This document shows positions 4,663-19,753 of a stretch of DNA of 64,000 nt, one piece after another. Below the pieces are notes generated by a model that was not told where the DNA came from, searched no databases, and saw nothing but the letters and a program-made list of their open reading frames with translations. The stretch is from the NCBI RefSeq assembly GCF_014280235.1, contig NZ_CP047940.1, positions 1,984,001 to 2,048,000 on the forward strand, in the 5' to 3' direction. Every line of letters begins with the position of its first letter. The first letter of the stretch is position 1. The stretch comes from Cyanobium sp. NS01. GTDB taxonomy: Bacteria > Cyanobacteriota > Cyanobacteriia > PCC-6307 > Cyanobiaceae. Position numbers and translations under genes: made by a program.

Positions 4663-5319
4663 ATGCAGCAGCCCCATGGCGCCGGCAAAGAGACTCTGAG
4701 GGCGAGCTTCCGGGTGCGCCGCCGAGAGCTGCTGGCCGGCTGCGGCGCAGGGTTGCTGCAGCACCTGGAGGTCCTGCTGGCCCAGGCCGGCTCCTGGCCG
4801 CAGGATGGCGGAGCCCCTGTCCTGGCAACGAGGCGGGGCCGGCTGGGCCTCTACTGGCCCCTGGCGGGGGAGCCGGACCTGCGTCCCCTGCTGACCACAA
4901 GCCCCACCTGGTGCCGGCACCTGGCCCTGCCGGCCATCGCCGCCGGCCGCCTCGACTACCGCCCCTGGCAGCCGGGGGAGGCCCTGGCCGCTGACGCCTG
5001 CGGCATCCCCGCACCGCTGGAGCGGGCGGGCAGGCTGGAGCCCGAAGCCCTGGCGTTGCTGCTGGTGCCGGCCCTGGCCATCGACAGGCAGGGCGTGCGG
5101 CTGGGCTATGGCGGCGGCTGGTACGACCGCCTGCGCGGCCAGGAGTGCTGGCGGCGGGTGCCGGCCCTGGCCGTGCTGCCCTCCGGCTGCCTGTGCGACC
5201 AGCTCCCCAGGGATCCCTGGGACGTGCCCCTCGATGGCTGGCTGACGGAGCGGGGCCTGCACTGGCTGGGCAAGACTGAGCCGGCTGCTCCGCATCTGGA
5301 CGGTCACGACAAACCTTGA
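4663..5319 (+). CDS. 5-formyltetrahydrofolate cyclo-ligase (MTHFS) family
   Basis: The enzyme converts 5-formyl-THF to 5,10-methenyl-THF with ATP and salvages the folate storage form. Family signs are the N-terminal basic helix LRASFRVRRREL and the C-terminal substrate-binding/ATP motif LGYGGGWYDR at about residues 145-154, preceded by LLVPALAIDRQGVRLG. Length of 218 residues is usual. A hairpin at 5325-5352 follows the stop closely and may end the chlI-ruvC-this gene transcript. Confidence 0.9.
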   Translation: MQQPHGAGKETLRASFRVRRRELLAGCGAGLLQHLEVLLAQAGSWPQDGGAPVLATRRGRLGLYWPLAGEPDLRPLLTTSPTWCRHLALPAIAAGRLDYRPWQPGEALAADACGIPAPLERAGRLEPEALALLLVPALAIDRQGVRLGYGGGWYDRLRGQECWRRVPALAVLPSGCLCDQLPRDPWDVPLDGWLTERGLHWLGKTEPAAPHLDGHDKP

Positions 5320-16818: not shown

Positions 16819-17937
16819 TCAGGCGTCCTGGTCGGTCAGGAAATGCCGCGCCGCCTCCACGATCCGGCCGCTGGCCAGGCCGTCGCCGAAGGGGTTATGG
16901 GCCCGGGCCATCGCCTCATAGGCCGCCGCATCGCTGAGCAGGGCTGAGGCCTCGGCCAGGATGTCGCTGCTGGCGGTACCGATCAGCTTGGCGGTGCCGG
17001 CCTGGATCGCCTCGGGCCGTTCGGTGGTGCGGCGCAGCACCAGCACCGGCTTGCCCAGGGCCGGCGCCTCCTCCTGCAGCCCGCCGGAATCGCTGAGCAC
17101 CAGGGTGCAGCCGCGCATCGCCGCCACCAGCTCGTCGTAGTCGAGCGGTTCGGTGAGGAAGGCCCGCGGGTGAGTGCCCAGCAGCTCCTGCAGCGGCTCG
17201 CGCACCGTGGGGTTGCGGTGCAGGGGCAGCAGCAGGGCCGTGTCGGGGAAGCGCTCCAGCAGCGCCAGGAATCCCTGGCCGATCTCGCGCAGGCGTTCAC
17301 CCCAGTTTTCGCGCCGGTGCACCGTGGCCAGGATCACCCGTTGCCCTTGCCAGTCGAGGCCGTCGAGCCCGTAGGCCGGGGCCCGCTCGGCCATCTGCAG
17401 CAGGGCATCGATCACGGTGTTGCCCGTGGTGAGGATGCGGCCCACCACCCCCGAGGCCCGGCAGTTGGCGGCCGCTTGCTCGGTGGGGGCGAAGTGGAGC
17501 TGGGCCAGCTGGGAAATCAGCCGCCGGTTGGCCTCCTCCGGGAAGGGATCAAGGATGTTGTCGGTGCGCAGGCCGGCCTCCACGTGCCCCACGGGGATCT
17601 GGGCGTAAAAAGCGGCCAGGGCCGAGGCGAAGGCGGTGGTGGTGTCGCCCTGAACCAGCACCAGATCGGGAGGGTGCTCGGCGAACTCCCGTTGGAGACC
17701 CTCGAGGGCGGCGCAGGTGATGTGGGTGAGGGTCTGCTGCGGTGCCATCAGGGCCAGGTCGCAGTCGGCCGTGAGGGCGAACAGCTCCATCACCTGACTC
17801 ACCATTTCGCGGTGCTGGCCGGTGAGCACCACCCGGGTGCGGAAGTCGTGGGCCTGCTGGAACGCCAGGATCACCGGGGCCAGCTTGATCGCCTCTGGCC
17901 TGGTGCCCAGCACGATGCTCACGAGGGGCTTGGTCAA
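16819..17937 (-). CDS. wecB: UDP-N-acetylglucosamine 2-epimerase (non-hydrolysing)
   Basis: It interconverts UDP-GlcNAc and UDP-ManNAc for surface polysaccharide. Signatures are VSIVLGTRPEAIKLAPVI, VLVQGDTTTAFASALAAFY, VGHVEAGLRT, FPEEANRRLIS, ATVHRRENWG and SDSGGLQEEAPALGKPVLVLR. Length of 372 residues is typical. The longest start is TTG 17937; GTG 17922 directly before the first strand is an alternative. It stands alone next to the ATPase remnant. Confidence 0.95.
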   Translation of the reverse strand: MTKPLVSIVLGTRPEAIKLAPVILAFQQAHDFRTRVVLTGQHREMVSQVMELFALTADCDLALMAPQQTLTHITCAALEGLQREFAEHPPDLVLVQGDTTTAFASALAAFYAQIPVGHVEAGLRTDNILDPFPEEANRRLISQLAQLHFAPTEQAAANCRASGVVGRILTTGNTVIDALLQMAERAPAYGLDGLDWQGQRVILATVHRRENWGERLREIGQGFLALLERFPDTALLLPLHRNPTVREPLQELLGTHPRAFLTEPLDYDELVAAMRGCTLVLSDSGGLQEEAPALGKPVLVLRRTTERPEAIQAGTAKLIGTASSDILAEASALLSDAAAYEAMARAHNPFGDGLASGRIVEAARHFLTDQDA

Positions 17938-17985: not shown

Positions 17986-18340
17986 AGTCAAACCGCCCTG
18001 CGGGCCTCGATGCACGAAGACCCCGACGTGACCTGATCGGCGAGATCCGCGACCGCGAGACCCTCTCCACCGCCATCGAGGCCTCCCACACGGGCCAGTT
18101 GGTGTTCGGCAGTCGTAAGCGCTGCTGGCTGTGGTATCCCAGGGCCTGATCAAGACAAGGGAGGGGCAACGCACCGCCTACCTGGACATCCTGCTGAACA
18201 CCGATGCCTGCAGGGATGACATCCAGCGCGGCGAACTCGATGCGATCGAGGAGCTCATGAGGCGCAGCCGCTTCGACGGCATGCAGACCATCAACCAGTC
18301 GCTGCTGGATCTGGTGAACGCCGGCAGGGAGGAGGAGGGG
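17986..18340 (+). pseudogene. Decayed 3' remnant of a PilT/GspE-type secretion ATPase
   Basis: Three pieces in three frames read in order like the C-terminal half of a type IV pilus/type II secretion ATPase. At 17986-18030 is ALRASMHEDPDV. After a one-base loss near 18031 comes LIGEIRDRETLSTAIEASH plus TGQLVFG (18033-18110), the Asp-box/Walker B and His-box region. From 18119 a third frame reads LLAVVSQGLIKTREGQRTAY, ILLNTDACRD and FDGMQTINQSLLDLV. About 30-40 residues normally between the last two pieces are missing, and the N-terminal half and Walker A are absent. No stop ends the third piece. It cannot encode a working ATPase. Confidence 0.8.
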
Positions 18341-18367
18341 CCTTCAGGGGTAGAACCTGACTCCGGC

Positions 18368-18619
18368 TCAGCCCATGGCCAGCCTGGCCAGCAGCAGCAC
18401 CGTCAGCCCCACAGACAGGCCGAGCATGGCCAGACGTCCGTTCCAGATTTCGGCCTGGGGGGTAAAGCCACGCCGCCAGGCGTTCAGCTCGGTGGGGCTC
18501 ACCGGCTCATGGTCGGGCTCGCTCGGCTTCAGCGCATGGCCGTCAGCAACGGCGGCCTCGACTTCCGTGCCCACCACGGCCCCTGGCTCGCTGTCCATTT
18601 CAGCGTCTGCGGGGGGCAT
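18368..18619 (-). CDS. hli: High light-inducible protein (Hli / chlorophyll a/b-binding-like)
   Basis: The 83-residue protein ends in one transmembrane helix with the HLIP/ELIP chlorophyll-binding motif AEIWNGRLAMLGLSVGLTVL (Glu, Asn and Arg ligand pattern ExxNGRxAM). The long acidic N-terminal tail (residues 1-45) is hydrophilic. Such proteins bind chlorophyll and carotenoid in the thylakoid, protect photosystem assembly intermediates and are induced by light stress. It is monocistronic or follows tsaD after a 78-base gap. Confidence 0.92.
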   Translation of the reverse strand: MPPADAEMDSEPGAVVGTEVEAAVADGHALKPSEPDHEPVSPTELNAWRRGFTPQAEIWNGRLAMLGLSVGLTVLLLARLAMG

Positions 18620-18642
18620 TGGAAATCCACCGGTTGCCGTTC

Positions 18643-18648
18643 AGAATA
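18643..18648 (-). promoter_or_regulatory. Candidate -10 element for hli
   Basis: On the minus strand TATTCT lies about 24 bases before the hli ATG, in the short gap after tsaD. A poor -35-like GACAGG is 18 bases further up. This is a by-eye match only; it would allow hli to be light-regulated independently of tsaD. Confidence 0.25.
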
Positions 18649-18697
18649 GGGCTGTTGTGTTGACGCCCTGTCTCGCAGCCTCCAGGCTCCACTCTGC

Positions 18698-19753
18698 TCA
18701 GAAACAGGCCGCAGCTTCATAGAGCCTGTCCGCCTGCTCGAGGGGCCAACGGGCCGACACACCGAGGTTGGCGCAGCTGGTCTGGCCCAGGTCCAGGCGC
18801 TGACAGGCCGCCACCCCGATCATGGCGGCGTTGTCGGTGCAGAACGGCAGGGGAGCCACCCGCCACTGCAGGCCATCGCGGCTGGCCCGCTCCTGCAGCA
18901 GGGCCCGCAGCCGCCGGTTGGCGGCTACGCCGCCCACCAGCACCAGGGTGCCGAGGCCCAGGTCGCGGGCACAGCGGCAACTGCGCTCCACCAGCACCTC
19001 CGCCACCACCTGCTCGAAGCTGGCGGCCAGGTCGGCCAGCGGCAGCGGCTCTCCGCTCTGCTGCAGCGACCGCACCAGCCGCAACATCGCCGTCTTGAGC
19101 CCGCTGAAACTGAAGTCGTAGGGGTGGTAGCCGCCCTCAGGCCTCGACACCCTGCCCTTGGGCAGGGCGAAGCGATGGGGATCCCCCGCGCCCGAGACGG
19201 CCTGAATGGCAGGTCCACCGGGATAGCCCAGCTCCAGCAGGCGGGCCACCTTGTCGAAGGCCTCGCCGGCCGCGTCGTCGTGGCTGCGCCCCAGCCGCCG
19301 GTAGAGCCCTGGGCCGCTCACCTGGATCAGCTCCGTGTGCCCGCCGCTGACCAGCAGCACCAGGTAGGGCCCTGGCGGCAGCGGATCGCCGAGCTGCACC
19401 GAGCAGAGATGACCCTCCAGGTGATGGATGCCCAGGAAGGGCCGGCCATGGAGCCGAGCCAGGGTACGGCCGGTGAGCGAGGCCACCAGCAGGGCCCCCA
19501 GCAGCCCAGGGGTGGCGGTGGCGGCGATGGCATCCATGGCGGCGGGGCCGAGGCCGGCCTGGCGGCAGACCCGATCGATCAGGGCGGGGAGGGCCTCCAC
19601 ATGGCGCCGCGAGGCAATTTCGGGCACCACGCCGCCCCAGCGGGCATGCTCCTCCACCTGGGAGGCCACGGCGCTGGCCAGCACCGTGCGATCGCGCACA
19701 ATCGCAGCCGCTGACTCGTCACAACTTGTTTCGAGGGCCAGAACCGTTGGCAT
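18698..19753 (-). CDS. tsaD: tRNA N6-adenosine threonylcarbamoyltransferase TsaD
   Basis: TsaD transfers the threonylcarbamoyl group to A37 of ANN-decoding tRNAs (t6A). Seen are the N-terminus [16 protein letters not shown], the metal-binding HxxxH in [22 protein letters not shown], the [15 protein letters not shown] loop, and the C-terminal [10 protein letters not shown]. Length of 351 residues is normal. Divergent from psaF. Confidence 0.97.

Follow-up and report, generated by a model that had tools for sequence, protein, structure and literature searches.

Background

The type IV pili of cyanobacteria have a second retraction ATPase of PilT type, PilT2, whose published mark is a proline-rich N-terminus (PMC4390875, PMC12288463). 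A suggested role is that of PilU, the proteobacterial PilT-dependent retraction ATPase, with PilT2 aiding PilT1 retraction under load (PMC12288463). Mutants of pilT2 retain pili and competence, one reported phototaxis phenotype is uncertain, and the phenotypes reported are weak or come from one clone that was not complemented (PMC12288463). In marine relatives, pili serve to raise drag and keep the cells suspended (PMC7994388).

Results and discussion

A degraded pilT2 between wecB and hli

The window analysed here is a stretch of 64,000 nucleotides from Cyanobium sp. NS01, a genome assembled as one contig of 2,748,087 bp. At positions 17995-18325 of the window (near contig position 2,002 kb) lie three collinear coding pieces, each in a successive frame, which we interpret, with a probability of about 0.96, as the non-functional remnant of pilT2. 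The features of the locus are as follows.

16819-17937, minus strand: wecB, UDP-N-acetylglucosamine 2-epimerase-like; conserved neighbour upstream of pilT2
17995-18030, plus strand: piece 1 of the pilT2 fossil, ALRASMHEDPDV, covering the opening half of the Asp box; corresponds to residues 233-244 of an intact 397-aa homologue (L040)
18031-18032, plus strand: site of a 1-bp deletion, shifting the frame within the Asp box
18033-18110, plus strand: piece 2 of the pilT2 fossil, LIGEIRDRETLSTAIEASHTGQLVFG, running from the Asp box to the His box; residues 246-271 in the intact homologue
18111-18121, plus strand: scar left by a net loss of 88 bp inside the gene
18122-18325, plus strand: piece 3 of the pilT2 fossil, LLAVVSQGLIKT...SLLDLVNAG, from the C-terminal domain; residues 305-372 in the intact homologue
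18326-18367, plus strand: eroded pilT2 3' end, with deletions of 4 bp and about 31 bp, original stop codon gone
18368-18619, minus strand: hli, high-light-inducible, chlorophyll-binding-like; conserved neighbour downstream of pilT2
18698-19753, minus strand: tsaD; conserved neighbour next after hli

In a profile search, the joined pieces matched the TIGR01420 (pilT_fam) model with an E-value of 1.7e-26 and 93 bits. This is below the whole-protein cut-off of 319 bits, as expected for what is only a fragment, and intact orthologues score 416-428 bits, above the cut-off. Pieces 1 and 2 together pass the Pfam T2SSE gathering threshold (39.4 bits versus 24.9; E = 3.9e-10), and tblastn with intact relatives recovered the three pieces in the correct order at 114, 47 and 25 bits, where the top score among 500 dinucleotide shuffles of the interval was 26.6 bits. 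The 12-aa piece 1 is not significant by its own score and is supported by its place and order. Among PDB chains, the best match was to a PilU chain (9n32_A, 4.9e-15), with PilT chains at 2e-14. The GspE and PilB models score only 38 and 32 bits where pilT_fam reaches 93, and cover just the Asp/His-box part. By sequence match, the feature thus belongs by descent to the PilT/PilU family (TIGR01420), and these comparisons confirm it as what remains of a PilT-family type IV pilus ATPase. The initial annotation had recognized in the three peptides the Asp box, His box and C-terminal domain of a PilT/GspE-type ATPase; the motif assignments held, and the PilT type can be narrowed to PilT2, while the GspE type falls away.

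That narrowing comes from synteny and from the N-terminus of the intact relatives. The initial annotation proposed looking for an intact copy between wecB and hli in related genomes, and 10 genomes of the same genus do hold an intact syntenic orthologue of about 385-400 aa there, in the order wecB (minus), pilT2 (plus), hli (minus), tsaD (minus). Identity of the joined fossil to these orthologues is 53-61% over the whole alignment, gap included. The intact homologues open with proline runs (MTTAPLPPPSPLPHSPLPPPP; MTTAPLPPPSPLPHSPLPPPPLP...), which identifies the gene as PilT2 rather than PilB, PilT1 or GspE; the corresponding region is deleted in the window copy itself. The fossil is also encoded apart from the pilB-pilT1-pilC cluster, which lies at approximately 20.4-25.0 kb of the contig. 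Within the NS01 genome, the Asp/His-box peptides do match PilB, at 66% over 41 aa, and PilT1, at 55% over 42 aa, as might a degenerate pilT1 or pilB duplicate, or a transferred GspE fragment, that had never been a resident gene. However, syntenic PilT2 gives higher identity, reaching 83% in the Asp/His boxes and 73% in the C-terminal domain, and the site is the exact place of intact pilT2 in relatives. Identity and synteny together rule out such an origin, to which we give almost no credence.

A search of plasmid-record proteins gave matches of only 60-80% or lower, to PilT of other phyla, with no sign of a mobile source. In a DNA tree that took in PilT2 rows only, the fossil is closer to the L034-L038 group (86% to L034; support 96/82) than to L039/L040 (82%), although a tree joining it to L039/L040, its sisters in the species tree, is not rejected (p-AU 0.16). 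Past recombination at the locus is a possible cause of this affinity, as is noise.

Lesions and decay of the remnant

Relative to intact homologues, the window copy has lost about 232 N-terminal codons (residues 1-232 of approximately 397), including the start codon, the proline-rich N-terminus and Walker A. Comparison with intact relatives bore out the one-base loss that the initial annotation had placed between the first two pieces, here a 1-bp deletion in the Asp box. It also revealed a net deletion after the His box where an internal deletion of 30-40 codons had been proposed, the actual size being 88 bp, or about 29 codons. The N-terminal loss and the 3' deletions (4 bp and about 31 bp), which removed the stop codon, go beyond that annotation. 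A functional PilT-type ATPase would carry four motifs, Walker A, Walker B, the Asp box and the His box, within a single open frame; in the window copy, Walker A is deleted, the frame is broken in the Asp box and 88 bp are lost beyond the His box.

The remaining sequence has also accumulated changes. The fossil differs at four of 30 columns that are invariant over 69 intact homologues; repeating the count with each intact sequence left out in turn gives 0 as the median and 4 as the highest value. Differences between the fossil and L034 number 14, 7 and 22 at codon positions 1, 2 and 3 (21 of 43 at the first two). Between L034 and L037, both intact, the corresponding numbers are 4, 2 and 27 (6 of 33). 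These substitution patterns fit relaxed selection, although the fossil keeps much of its similarity.

If the breaks were sequencing or assembly errors, the gene would be truly intact, and the 1-bp deletion by itself could be such an error. However, about 232 codons (near 700 bp), 88 bp internally and further 3' sequence are missing from a one-contig genome rated 100% complete, and the excess of changes at first and second codon positions fits relaxed selection. A single assembly error cannot account for several large lesions, which for practical purposes rule out this very improbable explanation.

Because the pilT2 stop codon is lost, the frame of piece 3 continues antisense into hli. The resulting open frame at 18131-18649 extends for 172 aa from a GTG start and retains 69-75% identity to the PilT2 C-terminus, so in principle it could be translated as a new short protein derived from the C-terminal domain. 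Yet it lacks Walker A and the Asp box, consists of the C-terminal domain alone before running antisense through hli (its last 90-100 residues), and alters two residues invariant in the 69 intact homologues, Y337D and I349L (L040 numbering). Openness over hli may simply follow from the coding constraint on hli and high G+C. We regard a new protein here as exceedingly unlikely, and the feature is an ordinary pseudogene.

A tree of WecB, TsaD and YchF places the window as sister to G001 and G011 (100/100), both with intact pilT2, and the loss is younger than the split from these nearest intact relatives. We rejected dating it by substitutions, since 318 nt offer too few sites, and make only this relative statement. 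The earlier suggestion of a recent loss is therefore loosely supported: the loss postdates the split, but first- and second-position changes have already accumulated.

Pilus and competence genes retained in NS01

Cyanobium sp. NS01 has intact open frames for PilB (732 aa) and PilT1 (408 aa), as well as an intact PilC, and a secretin, prepilin-like N-methylation motifs and ComEC are also present. A PF00437 search of the genome found no copy beyond PilB, PilT1 and the fossil, and no intact pilT2 elsewhere. The retention of pilB-pilT1-pilC, secretin, prepilins and comEC rules out loss of the whole pilus and indicates that a putative accessory retraction motor was lost instead. Of the two outcomes initially envisaged, a lineage losing its pilus or competence motor is thus contradicted, and one keeping a paralogue is what we see. 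The PilM_2 profile had no match in the NS01 genome, a null that says little because homology is also reported to have failed to reveal PilM and PilO in marine Synechococcus WH7803 (PMC7994388).

Recurrent loss of pilT2 in picocyanobacteria

To place this loss in a wider context, we compared 80 named loci retrieved by WecB, most with intact pilT2 beside wecB. The gene is gone, with hli close to wecB, at L048, L049, L065, L113, L116 (Synechococcus sp. SynAce01) and L119, and truncated remnants persist at L067, L083 (GFB01) and L115. Synechococcus sp. GFB01 (G002) provides another remnant at the same site within the genus. Loci with single breaks (L072, L075, L118) or cut by contig ends were left unscored. 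By parsimony, 8 state changes account for 10 losses among 77 scored picocyanobacterial rows, suggesting that pilT2 was lost at the same locus about eight times independently among the loci examined. A literature search on pilT2 pseudogenes in Synechococcus returned nothing relevant.

A PF00437 search of the nine other loss genomes (L116, L119, L083, L115, L048, L049, L065, L113, L067) gave both PilB-size and PilT1-size matches in eight; the L067 genome had one short match only. At the family level, a PilT2 query matched in 176 of 250 genomes, which we read as approximately 127 with near-full PilT2 and approximately 37 with PilT1- and PilB-level matches only. Eighteen of the latter were searched again: each has PilB and PilT1, two (G088 and G115) have a second PilB-type ATPase, and a third PilT-type ATPase was not found in any of the 18.

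Several records from this survey stand apart. In genus g3 of the same family, decay can run the other way: PilT2, whole, truncated or broken, is left in four genomes where full PilB and PilT1 are gone or fragmentary. Of these, G080 and G164 have a PilT2 match alone, in truncated frames, whereas G116 and G158 have fragments. The pilT2 of L072 (isolate Cyanobium sp. Cruz CV13-4-11) is full apart from a single break near 4940, which may mark a pseudogene at an early stage or an error in the draft. The GFB01 record (G002/G255), a 2.3-Mb draft with a rated completeness of 78% and contamination of 6%, has PilB and PilT1 at two loci each and is probably a mixture of two organisms. A metagenome-assembled genome titled Bifidobacterium breve (L084) includes a clear picocyanobacterial wecB-pilT2-hli contig, a mislabelled or contaminated record.

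Possible meaning of the loss

PilT2 may be an accessory, perhaps PilU-like, motor assisting PilT1 in retraction under load. Use of pili for drag and suspension need not require strong retraction; where the service of PilT2 was not needed, selection on its gene would relax, and successive deletions could then remove it while assembly (PilB) and basic retraction (PilT1) stayed. That PilT2 has been lost repeatedly from genomes that retain PilB and PilT1 fits an accessory motor of lifestyle-dependent benefit. Retention of PilT2 for Che-type phototaxis is ruled out as a general reason: CheW occurs in only 13 of 250 family genomes, and in our cross-reading with the PilT2 matches all 13 have PilT2, but CheW is absent from most PilT2-bearing genomes.

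A bolder and rather doubtful proposal is that loss was a repeated selected step and not drift, in which lineages whose pili serve no more than DNA uptake or drag in the plankton would shed the accessory motor and keep PilB and PilT1. If so, the wecB-hli locus would be a readable marker of pilus lifestyle. A lone pilus pseudogene is ordinary; the added value lies in recurrent loss at one locus with the motor set usually intact. As PilT2 function is poorly understood, NS01 is modestly useful as a natural pilT2 knockout, one among several, and pairing genomes that have PilT2 with genomes that lack it allows its purpose to be tested directly by comparison.

Comparison with known pilus ATPases

The extension ATPases GspE and PilB have the Asp and His boxes in common with the fossil, but score much more weakly, and PilB is intact elsewhere in the NS01 genome. 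PilU gives the best solved-structure match, with PilT chains nearly equal in score, and an accessory role similar to its own has been proposed for PilT2 (PMC12288463). Cyanobacterial PilT2 itself agrees in family, in syntenic place, in the proline-rich N-terminus of the intact relatives and in occurring alongside pilB-pilT1-pilC; the window copy differs from it in having lost the N-terminus, Walker A, part of the core and the stop codon.
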